In this document: piece by piece, positions 26,085 through 34,452 of the stretch
Layout: each line of letters opens with the position of its first letter
Position numbering within the stretch: the stretch's first letter is position 1
DNA from: a virus
IMG/VR virus record: IMGVR_UViG_3300043446_001093
Location: 1 to 39,568 of that record
DNA length: 39,568 nt
Reading direction: 5' to 3' (one strand)
Translations under genes and position numbers: made by a program
The notes under the pieces: generated by a model
Databases searched by the model: none
Told to the model about the DNA's origin: nothing
The model's input: only the letters and a program-made list of their open reading frames with translations

Positions 26085-26735
26085 CTACTCCTTATGATGT
26101 TCACAGGTGGTGACCGGGCACCACTTGCATAGGGGGGTTGGGTTGGCAGGCCAGACGTTGTTGTCGGTCGCCGTTCTCAGTCGCAGCAAGTCCCACGCAA
26201 ACACGTTCCACATCGACGTGAGGTGATCTCGCGTGTACGTTTCCTCAATGAAACTGTTATGGGCCACGAACAGCAGCCCGCCTTTGACTTTTTGAACTTC
26301 CGGGAAATGCTCAAACACCATCAGCGCCATCAGCTTTAGCTGCTTGGTGTCCGGGTACTTCGCGCTTCCCGTTTTGTAGTCAATCACAAACGCACTGTCG
26401 CCATCCACGATCAGCAAGTCTGCTATCCCACGCACCCAGTACTCCGGGGCATCGAACGCGCACGGTTCTTTCGCTTCGGTCAGTGCCATCTTGTGTTCAG
26501 GGTAACGCGTGCCGGGTATCTCCAGCAGCGCGTCCAGCATGGGCTGATACTTCTTATAGAACGTAGGCAGTGGCGTGCCATCCCGCGTGTAGTCCTCCAG
26601 CGCCTTGTGTACCTCCGTGCCATACAGCATTTGCTGCGTGACAGCCTTGGTGAACTTCCGTAGAACCTTGACCTCGTTGTACTGGCGAGGGCAGTTCACG
26701 AAGTCCTTCAAGCCACTGAAAGACCACTTAATCAT
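26085..26735 (-). CDS. Cas4/RecB-like PD-(D/E)XK nuclease with four-Cys Fe-S cluster
   Basis: 216 residues. MIKWSFSGLKDFVNCPRQY provides the first Cys (C15). YGTEVHKALEDY (38-49) has the motif I His. RGIADLLIVDGDSAFVIDYKTGS (102-124) gives D106, D119 and K121 of the nuclease core, and KQLKLMALM (131-139) supplies the Gln of the QxxxY-like motif. C203, C206 and C211 in PLCKWCPVTTCEHH complete the four-Cys set that encloses a 4Fe-4S cluster in Cas4 and AddB proteins. It probably resects DNA ends in phage recombination or replication. No Cas1 or Cas2 is present, so a CRISPR role is not suggested. Its ATG overlaps the polymerase stop. Confidence 0.85.
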   Translation of the reverse strand: MIKWSFSGLKDFVNCPRQYNEVKVLRKFTKAVTQQMLYGTEVHKALEDYTRDGTPLPTFYKKYQPMLDALLEIPGTRYPEHKMALTEAKEPCAFDAPEYWVRGIADLLIVDGDSAFVIDYKTGSAKYPDTKQLKLMALMVFEHFPEVQKVKGGLLFVAHNSFIEETYTRDHLTSMWNVFAWDLLRLRTATDNNVWPANPTPLCKWCPVTTCEHHKE

Positions 26736-29425
26736 TTACAGTTTCCGTATGAAGTACCTTGCTTGGCTTCGCACGCAATCGGCAAGCCTTGCGCCCACAT
26801 AGGGGTAGTGGACATACACAAGGTTATATACTCCACCGCATTAGTCAAGTCTTCTTTAGGCACCACGCACATCGCGGCGTCATGCACAGTCAGCACCACA
26901 CGATACTCACGGTTTATCCACAGCATTTGCTGCCCAACGATGATCCTCGCCAGAGCCTGCACGATGTTCTCGACCATCGCCCCGCCCCAGATGCTGACCG
27001 GGCCTTTGCGGCTGTCGTAGATAACCCGCTCGCCATCTCGTCTGAGGTTCTTGTACCGGATATGTAGACCGTTAGGTAACCTAACGCCATTGGCACTGAC
27101 CGTCACGATGCCATGCAAGCCCAGCTTCAACAGCTTGGTCGAGCCACTCATCATGTAGTTAAGTGCTTGGTCACACTCACGCCAGAGGGCGGTGATATAA
27201 GAGTTGGCAGATCGATAAACATCAACCATACGTTTACTTTCTTCTTCTGAAACTATTGCTCCCGGTGGGGTAGTCTTCAGCGTGTGCTTTAACTTCTTTG
27301 CCCCAGTACCGTAGCCAAGACCAAGAACGCAGTTGTGTACGATGATCGGCCCTCGGTCAGTCAGAACCGTAAACCTGTTGCGCGAGCCGCTGTTCAAGAT
27401 GTCGTATACGGGCTTCAAGGTCTGCAATTTTTCTTTTATTAGCGGTGTTTTGTGCGGGGGAAACAAACCGGATATTTCCGGGTTCGTAGTTCCCATTAAC
27501 ATCAATGCGATCAATCTGGAACGCCGGGTTATTCCATCCTCCAAGAGTTTGAACATACCGTAGAAATTCAAACCGATCTGCTCTCCACGGCTCATAAACT
27601 GTAATGCCGCGCCGCCCGTAGTGTTTATAATTGACGTTGTTGGGGTTATGGCAGCGGGAAATCGCTGCGGATAATCGGTTAAGTAGTCTAGAGCGGTGCT
27701 GATCGTCTGACAGAACTTCTTTATATTTCCACCATCGCTTATCGCCCGCCTTTCGTTTCGCGCACTCATTGCATGAGGTTGATCTTCCTGCTCTGAGATT
27801 GTGCCCAGCGTAGGAGTACTCACTCCCGCAACGCCTGCATCGACAGACAGCCTGCCATCCCCAACTGCGTCCTGTTCGTTTAGATGAGTGCCGCTGATAG
27901 CCGATAACGATGAGATCGCCAAATTCAGTGCCGATTGGAATGCGGTACCGTGGGTTTGGACAAACTGCGCGATCTCCCAATTTGTAGGAGCCGTCAGAAT
28001 TTCGTGGTCGGGGGTCAGTTCCAGCCCATGCAGATTGATAATCGGCTTCACTCCCATAAATGAGACGCCGCAATGACTCACCCATTCAACACCATCCCAA
28101 AGCTGATCACTTGTCGTGACGTTTATTATTCTGACCCACCCTCTCCTAGTCAATACCTGAGTATCGTCACTTAAACAAGTCTTTCCTACGAATCTTTCAG
28201 TAGGATTGGCTTTAGTGATCGGTCTACCGTAAATCTTGGCGGCAAACTCAGAATAAACGTCTTGGCCTTCAGCGAATTGTTTAACTACGTCATCCTGCCC
28301 TGCCCACCACGCCAGCACCCGCGCTTCGATCTGTGAGGAGTCACAGTCAACGATCACGTGCCCCGACGGAGCCATGATGGAGTTCTTGAGCGCCTTCTTT
28401 TTCTTGTCCCGGCTAGGCAAGTTCTGGAAATTAACTGAGTCCATACCAGCCCAGCGTCCGGTATGCGCCCCGTAGTACTTGAGCGGGATCGGCAGCTTGC
28501 CTTTGTTCCGCGCCCCGATACCAATAAACCGCTCGACGCGGGCCTCCTCCAGCGTGGACTTGGTGCCCAGACGCACGGCGCACAGTTGCTGAATCGTAGG
28601 GTCTTCGTGTTCTTGCAGCGCCATGAACCCCTCGTCGTTCTTGGCGAGCGCGTAGGTCTCCGTGCCCGTGGCCGGCCTTATCTTCATGGGAACTTCTACG
28701 CCACGCTCGCGCAGGATGGCAGCGAACTGGGGGTTACTACATAGTCTCTTGCGAACTGACTCCTCGTCCTCGCAGCCCAACTCCCGCATCAAGCCGCCCA
28801 GCAGTTCCTGCTTTTCACTGCGTACTTCTTCAAGCCGCTCGACCAGCAGCGCATCGTCTACGTGAAGCGTAGGACACGTAAACATCCTGATGGTCATGTC
28901 GATCAGGCCAAGCTCAGAGTCAGGGAAACCGTATGACAAGATATTGAACAACGCAAACGTAAGCTCTACGTCGTTCTTGCAGTACTCACCGTAGCGAGCG
29001 AGTTCTTCTGGAGTGAAGTCCTCCAGTCGTTTACCCAGCGCGTTGACCACCTCCGTGCCTTTTGCGCCAAGCTCATACCTCGACACCAGTGCTGCCAGCG
29101 AGCCGCCTGCATCAACCCCGTGGATCGCCCGCGCCATACATAGCGTGTCGTAGTAAAACGCCGGTACAACGCCAAAGCGCCACGCCAGTATCGCACCGTC
29201 GAACAAAGTGTTATGACACAACACACACGCGGTGTCCCAGTCGATCTGCGCCAGACGTGCAGCGATAGCGTCGTGCCCTGCCACCCATTCCGTAGGCCCC
29301 GCATCTATCTTGATACCCACGCCGATCTCGTGGAACTCAGGGTTGTTGATGTACTCCTCTGTTGTGAGGTTGGTCAGGCCCATGCCCTGCCGGTAAAAAG
29401 TCTCAAAGTCCAATGTCACAAACAT
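26732..29425 (-). CDS. Family A DNA polymerase with 3'-5' exonuclease domain, interrupted by an intein
   Basis: 897 residues in the precursor, 615 after removal of the intein (residues 417-698). Exonuclease motifs are: I VTLDFETF (3-10), II HNTLFDGA (71-78) and III YGEYCKNDVE (145-154). Polymerase motif A is VDCDSSQIEAR (359-369). Motif B, 'ERFVGKT / CVLGLGYGTGAKKL', is split by the intein between T416 and C699. Motif C is VLTVHDAAMCVV, with Ala where E. coli Pol I has Glu after HD, a variant common in phage enzymes. It replicates the phage genome with the primase-helicase and ssDNA-binding protein. Splicing is needed because the intein breaks the catalytic O-helix. The stop overlaps the nuclease start. 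Confidence 0.93.
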   Translation of the reverse strand: MFVTLDFETFYRQGMGLTNLTTEEYINNPEFHEIGVGIKIDAGPTEWVAGHDAIAARLAQIDWDTACVLCHNTLFDGAILAWRFGVVPAFYYDTLCMARAIHGVDAGGSLAALVSRYELGAKGTEVVNALGKRLEDFTPEELARYGEYCKNDVELTFALFNILSYGFPDSELGLIDMTIRMFTCPTLHVDDALLVERLEEVRSEKQELLGGLMRELGCEDEESVRKRLCSNPQFAAILRERGVEVPMKIRPATGTETYALAKNDEGFMALQEHEDPTIQQLCAVRLGTKSTLEEARVERFIGIGARNKGKLPIPLKYYGAHTGRWAGMDSVNFQNLPSRDKKKKALKNSIMAPSGHVIVDCDSSQIEARVLAWWAGQDDVVKQFAEGQDVYSEFAAKIYGRPITKANPTERFVGKTCLSDDTQVLTRRGWVRIINVTTSDQLWDGVEWVSHCGVSFMGVKPIINLHGLELTPDHEILTAPTNWEIAQFVQTHGTAFQSALNLAISSLSAISGTHLNEQDAVGDGRLSVDAGVAGVSTPTLGTISEQEDQPHAMSARNERRAISDGGNIKKFCQTISTALDYLTDYPQRFPAAITPTTSIINTTGGAALQFMSRGEQIGLNFYGMFKLLEDGITRRSRLIALMLMGTTNPEISGLFPPHKTPLIKEKLQTLKPVYDILNSGSRNRFTVLTDRGPIIVHNCVLGLGYGTGAKKLKHTLKTTPPGAIVSEEESKRMVDVYRSANSYITALWRECDQALNYMMSGSTKLLKLGLHGIVTVSANGVRLPNGLHIRYKNLRRDGERVIYDSRKGPVSIWGGAMVENIVQALARIIVGQQMLWINREYRVVLTVHDAAMCVVPKEDLTNAVEYITLCMSTTPMWAQGLPIACEAKQGTSYGNCK
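27070..27086. repeat. GTTAGG palindrome, copy 3 (inside the polymerase gene)
   Basis: CGTTAGG-TAA-CCTAACG, a perfect 17-base dyad in the polymerase C-terminal extein. It has the same arm sequence and 3-base centre as the leader copy at 36875-36897. Confidence 0.75.
27332..28177 (-). other. Intein (282 residues) in polymerase motif B
   Basis: This is polymerase precursor residues 417-698. Block A is CLSDDTQVLTRRGWVRI with Cys1. The WDGVEWVSHCGV and PIINLHGLE strands lead into block B, LTPDHEILTA, with the TxxH-type Thr/His. Block F/G is NRFTVLTDRGPIIVHN, followed by Cys+1 of the extein (CVLGLGYG). All residues needed for standard class 1 splicing are present: Cys1, the block B His, the terminal His-Asn and Cys+1. 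The stretch between about residue 500 and 660 resembles neither a LAGLIDADG nor an HNH domain in this frame. It is the out-of-frame translation of the nested HNH gene. A plain mini-intein needs only about 130-150 residues, so the middle is extra. Confidence 0.93.
27357..28085 (-). CDS. HNH homing endonuclease nested out of frame in the intein
   Basis: 242 codons from ATG 28085, on the same strand as the polymerase but in another frame, wholly inside the intein DNA. Residues 51-112 form an N-terminal domain IGTEFGDLIVIG ... AVCRCRRCGSEYSYAGHNLRAGRSTSCNECAKRK with Cys pairs (C81/C83/C86 and C105/C108), as in HNH homing proteins. Residues 140-218 carry the HNH core: AISRCHNPNN, YKHYGRRGITVYEPW, IDRIDVNGNYEPGNIRFV and NTANKR. 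A coiled-coil tail (IADLEARIRHLEQRLAQQV) overlaps the DNA leading into intein block F. No good ribosome-binding site precedes 28085, so the true start may be internal or depend on coupling. It would cut intein-free polymerase genes to spread the element. Confidence 0.8.
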   Translation of the reverse strand: MGESLRRLIYGSEADYQSAWAGTDPRPRNSDGSYKLGDRAVCPNPRYRIPIGTEFGDLIVIGYQRHSSKRTGRSWGWQAVCRCRRCGSEYSYAGHNLRAGRSTSCNECAKRKAGDKRWWKYKEVLSDDQHRSRLLNRLSAAISRCHNPNNVNYKHYGRRGITVYEPWRADRFEFLRYVQTLGGWNNPAFQIDRIDVNGNYEPGNIRFVSPAQNTANKRKIADLEARIRHLEQRLAQQVYGSD

Positions 29426-29428
29426 CGT

Positions 29429-29674
29429 TTACTCCTTCTTAACTGCGTCTTTCACTTTATGAACTAACCAATTCACACGTCCTAGAATGTCTAGGCTGCG
29501 CCACGCACCTTCAAACAAATCATCGTGCAGTAGTTCTTTAATCAACCGTCTCGTGTCCGCTCGCATAGGCGAGGGAAAGTAATGGTTGCACCACGGGCAC
29601 TTGACTGTTCTGTGTAACGATTTCGTAGAGTACTTGCGACTAAAGAATGAGAAGTTGCACTTGGGACAGATCAT
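29429..29674 (-). CDS. Small zinc-ribbon protein
   Basis: 81 residues. MICPKCNFSFFSRKYSTKSLHRTVKCPWCNHYF gives two CxxC pairs 23 residues apart (C3/C6 and C26/C29), a zinc ribbon. The rest is a charged helical domain (DTRRLIKELLHDDLFEGAWRSLDILGRVNWLVHKVKDAVKKE). The stop is a few bases before the polymerase start, and the ATG overlaps the stop of a 33-residue membrane-type gene. A nucleic-acid-binding or polymerase-accessory role is plausible by position; no family is recognised. Confidence 0.7.
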   Translation of the reverse strand: MICPKCNFSFFSRKYSTKSLHRTVKCPWCNHYFPSPMRADTRRLIKELLHDDLFEGAWRSLDILGRVNWLVHKVKDAVKKE

Positions 29675-33033: not shown

Positions 33034-34452
33034 TTACTTGAACACAACCATCTTGCCACCAGCAGGCGGCACGAACTGCTCGTTACCCTTGACCACCCAC
33101 AGCGTCGGAACGCGCACAGTCCACGTGATGTCGGACTCGACGTATCCATCAGTGAAGACAATCACGAAGTCAGCGTCGGTGTTGTTGGCCTTCATGTAGT
33201 CACTGACACATGAGACTCGTGTACCGCCGAAGCCCTTGGGTTTGAGCGCACTGCGAAGGTTTGCGTAGCTATCCTCGGTGAACCGTTGCTCCCCGTGTAC
33301 AGCAGTGTCCCACCACAGCACGATCAGTTCTTCTGGCACACACTGCTCGCACAGCATGACCACCAGCGAAGTCACACGGTTGATCTCTGCCTGCGATATG
33401 GAAGCGGACGTATCAATCGCCAGCAGGGCAGAGCCCGCACGCTCGTTGTACGTGGATGGTCTGTAAATATCGTCAACGATGCGGCGACGGTTGAACTTGG
33501 AGAACGTGTAGTCCGTGTTGCCACGGGTCTGTGAGACAAAGAAGTCACGCAGCACGTCTTCCCACCGGACCTCGGGCTCCATCAGTTCCTGCACAGCACG
33601 CGGCAGCTTGACGTTGGACACGCCAGCCAGCAGGCCCGCCTCTTGGATGCCTCGGTCGATCTGGTCGATCATGTCCTTGATCTCGTCATCAGTCAGGTCA
33701 CTCACACCTGACGTGTCGTGATCGTCCAGCGTCTCCAGCGAATACTCCTTGCCATCCACCGTGACAGACGTGCGGGTGTCCTCGTCGTCACCCTTGTCAT
33801 CCTTGTCATCCTTGTCATCACGCGGGGGCTCGGGCTTGTCACCGGGCTGCGTGTCCTGCTCGTCCTTGTCATCCTTGTCACCCTTGTCACTCTCGTCACC
33901 GCCCGGACCACGCGGCGGCTCACGCGGCGGCTCGGGCTTTTCCTCGTCTTCCTTCTTCAAGAAGTTATAAACCTGACGCAACGACCAGTTGATGAACTTC
34001 TCGTCGTACAGACCACCATCGGGCAGGATGACCACGGGGTCTTCTCTGCTATTAGCTGCGGCGAGCGCGGCCCGGTCTTCGATCTCGATTGCCTTGATGA
34101 TCGCGTTGACCACGTAGTCAGCGGCTGCGTTGGTCACGCGGGGGTCTGCCTGCCACAGGTCACGGTGCCGGGGTATCTGCTTCAAGAACACGTGCAGCGC
34201 CTCGTGCAGCACAAGGCCCGCCACCTTGGGCAAGGTCTTCACCTTGGTCATCAGGAAGTCAGAGTTGTAGAACTTGTTGATGCCGTCGGTGCAGGCGGTC
34301 GGACACTTGCTGTTATCTACAGTACTCGTACCCAACAGAAGCACACCGCTGTAGAAGTACGTCTTGCGGTGGCGCATGAGTCGGACGTGTGCCTTGCGAA
34401 GTATCTGCTCCGCTGCGGCGACATTGCTCGGGATGTTAGTAGCTACGTTCAT
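33034..34452 (-). CDS. VWA-domain protein with zincin-like N-terminus (MoxR partner)
   Basis: 472 residues. The N-terminus has VLHEALHVF (H83, E84, H87), a zinc-peptidase HExxH, as in the DUF2201-type metallopeptidase/VWA family. Residues about 168-225 are an extremely charged linker with DDKDDK repeats and Pro/Arg blocks. The C-terminus is a VWA fold: MIDAS motif AIDTSASIS (345-353), GGTRVSC (409-415, the MIDAS Thr) and IVFTDGYV (431-438). It lies close to the MoxR ATPase gene (34657-35772), with only a 62-residue gene between. Such pairs act as AAA+ motors with metal-binding clients. The client in a phage infection is unknown. Confidence 0.88.
   Translation of the reverse strand: MNVATNIPSNVAAAEQILRKAHVRLMRHRKTYFYSGVLLLGTSTVDNSKCPTACTDGINKFYNSDFLMTKVKTLPKVAGLVLHEALHVFLKQIPRHRDLWQADPRVTNAAADYVVNAIIKAIEIEDRAALAAANSREDPVVILPDGGLYDEKFINWSLRQVYNFLKKEDEEKPEPPREPPRGPGGDESDKGDKDDKDEQDTQPGDKPEPPRDDKDDKDDKGDDEDTRTSVTVDGKEYSLETLDDHDTSGVSDLTDDEIKDMIDQIDRGIQEAGLLAGVSNVKLPRAVQELMEPEVRWEDVLRDFFVSQTRGNTDYTFSKFNRRRIVDDIYRPSTYNERAGSALLAIDTSASISQAEINRVTSLVVMLCEQCVPEELIVLWWDTAVHGEQRFTEDSYANLRSALKPKGFGGTRVSCVSDYMKANNTDADFVIVFTDGYVESDITWTVRVPTLWVVKGNEQFVPPAGGKMVVFK

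Follow-up and report, generated by a model that had tools for sequence, protein, structure and literature searches.

Inteins are conventionally known in two states, either carrying an endonuclease as an in-frame domain or carrying none, and a locus that seems to fit neither raises the question of how one stretch of DNA can specify both a protein-splicing element and a separate homing nuclease. The window considered here is the whole 39,568-nucleotide stretch of IMG/VR virus record IMGVR_UViG_3300043446_001093. On its minus strand lies a family-A DNA polymerase gene (26732..29425; PF00476, 9.2e-25; phrog_17, 6e-67), an open reading frame (ORF) with zero internal stops that encodes an 897-residue precursor and a 615-residue extein once the intein is removed. 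The intein itself, of 282 residues or 846 nucleotides (27332..28177, minus strand), was assigned from its sequence, profile matches to PDB sequences, and Foldseek searches. It extends from Cys (28177) to Asn (27332) with the junctions ...ERFVGKT/C...HN/CVLGLGYG..., is inserted in the O-helix region of the polymerase, and retains the splice residues Cys1, TxxH of block B, the His-Asn end, and Cys+1. Uninterrupted, intein-free polymerase homologs exist. In a profile search against PDB sequences, the intein matched that of Mtu RecA and other mini-inteins (6e-5).

Within the same DNA, in the -1 frame of the intein, a 242-residue ORF of the HNH endonuclease family occupies 27357..28085 (minus strand), starting with an ATG (28085) within the intein E-W codons and ending with a TGA within the block F/G region, while the third frame across the intein is full of stops. 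A sequence-only reading of the locus had described a polymerase frame running unbroken through an intein with intact splicing motifs, together with this second ORF on the same strand, and both descriptions hold in every coordinate. When the two translations were searched separately, as that reading had proposed, the HNH frame was assigned to PHROG_374 'HNH endonuclease' (7.7e-36; also phrog_3377, 3.5e-22) and the intein frame to PHROG_93 (2.6e-22). PHROGs thus recognize both products, and neither is recognized by Pfam or NCBIfam. The family core spans ORF residues 44-220 (27426..27956, minus strand), as delimited by the phrog_374 match and by invariant columns among 41 relatives, and includes the Cys pairs C83/C86 and C105/C108 and the motif YGRRGI...DRIDVNGNYEPGN. 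In free-standing as well as nested members, the first His of the canonical H-N-H site (Asp-His in I-HmuI) is replaced by an Arg, as Asp-Arg or Glu-Arg, and HNH catalysis is therefore not to be assumed. The same contig carries a second HNH endonuclease-family gene at 33034-34452 (minus strand; 472 aa; phrog_1314, 1.4e-75).

Structure prediction with AlphaFold2, using alignments of 40-41 relatives, drew a sharp line through the intein frame. The N-terminal half of the predicted splicing (Hint) domain, residues 1-95 (27893..28177, minus strand), and its C-terminal part with blocks F and G, residues 250-282 (27332..27430, minus strand), were modeled with pLDDT of about 98 (98 for residues 1-90; 92-98 in the C-terminal part). 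Between them, residues 101-239 (27461..27877, minus strand), a shadow linker that results simply from reading the HNH gene in the intein frame, remained below 50. The HNH frame had a mean pLDDT of 86, rising to about 95 from residue 51 onward, with low confidence for the N-terminal leader of about 44 residues found in the -1 class. In the intein frame, the models thus show a confidently predicted splicing domain around a middle predicted to be disordered, and in the HNH frame a confidently predicted protein. All 32 Foldseek matches of the intein model at E<=10 were inteins or Hint proteins, the top ones with probability 1.00 and E of 2e-3 at best; a Foldseek search of the HNH model against the PDB returned no significant match and no solved relative.

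These predictions bear on whether the element might instead be a group I intron that harbors the HNH ORF, as the annotation of Sodalis phage SO-1 implies. There, the notes of gp38 and gp39 read 'type I self-splicing intron', and HNH genes in introns of phage polymerase genes are already known. In every member, however, the polymerase frame stays open across the insert, the predicted Hint domain is of high confidence and has all splice residues, and no Rfam intron family was detected at E<=1 within 26700-29500, which leaves the intron reading with next to no probability. In SO-1 itself (L185, NC_013600.1, 2486-3244), the nested HNH (gp39) is annotated as an intron product and the polymerase frame is open; this element belongs to the same intein class as that of the window.

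The layout is by no means peculiar to this contig. A second IMG/VR contig is 73% identical to the window in the HNH frame and 57-58% in the intein frame, and for Salmonella phages the corresponding values are about 43% and 26-31%. It is also present in Vibrio phage 97.13, Pseudomonas phage MR14, and EBPR siphovirus 2, and, more broadly, in cultured Jerseyvirus, Kagunavirus, Dhillonvirus, Vibrio, and Pseudomonas phages, in IMG/VR, and in bacterial genomes, with about 160 phage records overall, mostly from Salmonella and E. coli phages. Every full relative that was read has open polymerase and HNH frames and a closed third frame. The inteins of Caulobacter phage RLK, Hamiltonella phage APSE-1, and loci L003 and L004 match that of the window only at their ends and contain a second HNH clade, this time in the +1 frame. 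Host proteins comprise family-A polymerases, interrupted at several sites, and SNF2-type helicases. Among 133 inteins, Cys1 and TxxH were present in 133/133, the HN end in 131, and Cys/Ser+1 in 132.

For IMG/VR, loci were fetched with the HNH protein alone as bait and classified by profiles of the intein N- and C-terminal ends. With the window-type HNH, 79 of 80 loci were nested, in another frame, within an ORF that has both intein ends, and the remaining locus was partial; with the second clade, 59 were nested in the +1 frame, 20 were free-standing, and one was partial. Sixty-three loci from bacterial genomes included nine nested in the -1 and 36 in the +1 frame (45 in all) and 18 that were not nested. 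In total, some 140 loci from viruses or phages and 45/63 from bacterial genomes share the layout, counts that were not de-replicated and hence are no prevalence estimates. A further survey (A4) found 78/80 nested, plus L308 with HNH matches in two frames, but was not used for prevalence because its query included the shadow middle, which biases it. L014, flagged as a nested locus at a lax threshold, was rejected and is a mini-intein. Two host ORFs seemingly harbor two inteins each, that of L137 with intein-end matches about 740 codons apart and that of L174 (1049 aa) with an extra Pfam Intein_splicing match at residues 162-416. The phenomenon pointed out by the sequence-only reading is real and far more widespread than first thought.

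This breadth also settles whether sequencing or assembly frameshifts could have displaced an HNH domain that is truly in frame, as in ordinary inteins. One record, Salmonella phage SS3e, does have the HNH in frame by way of a length change, but more than 100 independent loci, cultured phages included, have both frames open at the same offset, and two compensating errors per locus are not credible. Because well over a hundred independent loci keep the layout, this explanation, which the sequence-only reading had itself named as fatal, deserves scarcely any credence. In SS3e (L012, NC_006940.2), an outlier among many Jerseyvirus records, the HNH lies in frame with the N-terminal half of the intein and the polymerase is split into two ORFs with an 'HNH endonuclease' between them, probably through a sequencing error that shifted the frame, or else through a genuine defect. 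The only other exception to an out-of-frame nuclease is L141/L308 (IMGVR_UViG_2848317263_000003), a decaying copy in which two frames match the HNH and a stop lies just 3' of the C-terminal splice site.

In the HNH tree, the -1 type forms a single clade that requires one change, with support of 90/78 in the careful and 99 in the quick tree. The +1 type appears in two places, one among free-standing HNHs and the other in a Bacillota-rich group with L006. With one +1 clade placed among free-standing genes, and with mini-inteins devoid of an HNH at related polymerase sites (L014, L016), it is plausible that a homing gene invaded a mini-intein, as the sequence-only reading had suggested.

Which of the two overlapping products does selection maintain? 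Simple Nei-Gojobori counts, in which each frame is treated without regard to the overlap, gave for the HNH core of the -1 class (24 independent pairs) a dN/dS of 0.16 in the HNH frame versus 1.15 in the intein frame over the same bases, and 0.19 for the intein N-block outside the overlap. Three pairs of the +1 class gave 0.16, 1.41, and 0.07, respectively. Changes at HNH codon positions 1, 2, and 3 numbered 671, 429, and 1484, the same contrast as in dN/dS. Purifying selection in the middle thus acts on the HNH frame only, and outside the HNH on the splicing motifs. The pattern that would have spoken against the sequence-only reading, an HNH frame with stops over a conserved intein middle, is reversed, in that the HNH is conserved in every homolog and the middle drifts freely. 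That reading had also called the in-frame middle 'unrecognisable', which needs correcting for profile searches, as the PHROG_93 alignment extends through it. Such similarity is there because the DNA codes for the HNH, the middle having a dN/dS of its own of about 1.15, and PHROG_93 is in practice a collection of these intein polymerases.

What does seem to be preserved in the intein frame is its openness, again as had been supposed. No stop occurred over the HNH in any of 133/133 inteins, for which synonymous shuffling would lead one to expect 4.1 (-1 class) or 7.6 (+1 class), and the intein frame of the window was stop-free in only 0.8% of 20,000 synonymous shuffles of the HNH codons (P 0.008). 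In 22 free-standing HNHs, the other two frames averaged 9.9 and 15.4 stops and a second frame was never open. The openness is not due to chance, and absence of stops is the sole visible constraint on the intein frame in the middle. The HNH frame might alternatively be a relic of a once-active nuclease that is now silent, in an intein that survives as a domesticated element, and endonuclease loss is indeed common among inteins. Drift and stop gain would then be expected; a dN/dS of that size over 24 independent pairs, an HNH frame open in every member, and conserved start codons make this very improbable.

Those start codons indicate how a nuclease maintained by selection could be translated. 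HNH genes of the -1 class start at an ATG across the intein Glu/Lys-Trp codons, or two codons on, or at codons 38/45, and the Shine-Dalgarno (SD)-like stretch before the start is made of Trp-Asp-Gly codons. In the window, this stretch is GGGATGGTG (28090..28098, minus strand), four bases 5' of ATG 28085, with a predicted anti-SD duplex of -7.7 kcal/mol. In the +1 class, the start lies at intein codons 62-77, just 3' of block B, and is either ATG or GTG, often behind a textbook GGAGG, e.g., cagcggaggatattatttATG. Since the intein motifs are common to both, the two classes serve as mutual natural controls: a start with SD in the -1 register was found in 71/81 of the -1 versus 13/52 of the +1 class (P=1.7e-13), and in the +1 register in 47/52 of the +1 versus 1/81 of the -1 class (P=5e-29). 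Compared with random positions at -5 kcal/mol, SD sites were present in 96% vs 71% for the -1 class and 96% vs 40% for the +1 class, so that the signal of the former is the weaker against its control. Frame-specific starts and SD sites together argue for internal initiation.

A programmed -1 frameshift would dispense with internal initiation, as ribosomes slipping from the intein frame would produce a fusion of the N-intein with the HNH. Such a shift fits the -1 frame of the HNH in the class of the window and would account for the leader that overlaps the intein N-terminal half. In-register slippery heptamers, however, occur in the relevant region of only 14/81 -1-class inteins, scattered and not conserved, the +1 class would require another shift, and a TGA immediately precedes the ATG in the HNH frame of the window. 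With start codons and SD sites enriched precisely where internal initiation requires them, a frameshift is very improbable, and separate initiation within the intein remains the preferred reading.

Comparison of closely related phages suggests that the unit moves. The polymerases of the intein-free Jerseyvirus S119, a Salmonella phage, and of the intein-bearing Ent1 share 98% identity across 200 residues. At the DNA level, the 300 nt downstream of the insertion are 99% identical and the 30 nt upstream 67%. The S119-like intein-free site reads GGCAAGGCT/TGCGAACTG. Between Jerseyvirus Ent1 and Dhillonvirus EP23, the inteins are 82% identical and the flanks 66-69%, and the 21 nt just upstream of the intein are 95% identical between Jerseyvirus and Dhillonvirus. 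A stretch of 24 nt upstream of the insertion (GACTTACGCCAGAT.GGTAA.GC.; L010 2385-2408 vs L252) is common to intein-bearing phages of three genera and differs in the intein-free sister phage; it is possibly a co-conversion tract. The identity pattern is consistent with lateral movement with co-conversion of flanks, a fit that is not proof of homing.

Taken together, the window locus is very probably a dual-coding mobile intein, with a homing nuclease that is translated on its own. The scheme that we infer comprises splicing, internal initiation, cleavage, and homing. Briefly, translation of the polymerase mRNA in the polymerase frame would continue across the intein, and the split Hint domain would excise itself with the disordered linker and join a normal polymerase. 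Ribosomes would also enter the same mRNA at a start codon within the intein that is served by a ribosome-binding site of its own, and the -1-frame product would be a free HNH-family endonuclease of 242 aa or slightly shorter. This enzyme would cut intein-free polymerase alleles, whose repair would copy the entire intein and HNH unit. Selection on the middle would target the HNH protein, and the intein frame would need only to lack stops. It is likely, if somewhat less firmly so, that dual-coding inteins form a widespread unrecognized mobile class in tailed phages and bacterial genomes, with an autonomously translated out-of-frame nuclease, at least two origins in two frames, each frame-locked over deep divergence, and codons of the splicing motifs as entry sites.

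Such elements would add a third intein state, in which the nuclease is present out of frame, and some inteins classed as endonuclease-free may hide one, e.g., the Jerseyvirus polymerase intein. The Ent1 intein is annotated merely as 'encoding splicing domains', and in APSE-1 P46 the nested ORF was met by annotators and not recognized as such. PHROG_93 is labeled 'endonuclease' and describes intein polymerases, so that whole DNA polymerases (e.g., L011, PP280813.1, 1091-4237) apparently receive this automated name. The class also provides a natural case of overlapping genes in which selection is separable by frame, and it suggests how free-standing HNH genes could come to capture splicing inteins. 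The scheme is testable in Salmonella and E. coli phages that are easy to culture and have intein-free sisters.

A search confined to the open literature, which leaves priority uncertain, found no description of the dual-coding layout as a class. The nearest parallel, the ShiLan domain, was reported in 2025 as an HNH inserted out of frame and without splicing domains; its authors concluded that it remains in the protein (PMC11855218). Its HNH frame in gp65 of phage ShiLan (third, -1) was verified here. Like the window, ShiLan has an HNH in the -1 frame of a stop-free host gene, a disordered in-frame product, and a mobile distribution; unlike the window, whose HNH is surrounded by a predicted Hint domain, it lacks intein splicing domains. 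As a relative it was not retained: its HNH matched the profile of the dual-coding class marginally (E 0.0035), for which reason an independent origin is preferred. For a brucellaphage terminase, the same arrangement in another host gene is claimed in one sentence (PMC4422536).

Among self-removing elements, the mini-inteins of Streptococcus phage Javan422 and Ruminococcus phage NatCom_29429 (140-168 aa) have related splicing blocks in polymerase genes without a nested HNH, and possibly represent a state before invasion or after loss. Classical inteins with LAGLIDADG or HNH nucleases share with the window a splicing domain and nuclease information between blocks B and F, but their nuclease is a domain of the intein, whereas that of the window is a separate ORF in another frame over a non-conserved intein linker. 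Group I introns of the I-HmuI type likewise combine a free nuclease gene having its own start with a self-removing element of a polymerase gene. The element of the window differs in being removed, as predicted, at the protein level, and its host frame must therefore stay open through the nuclease gene.
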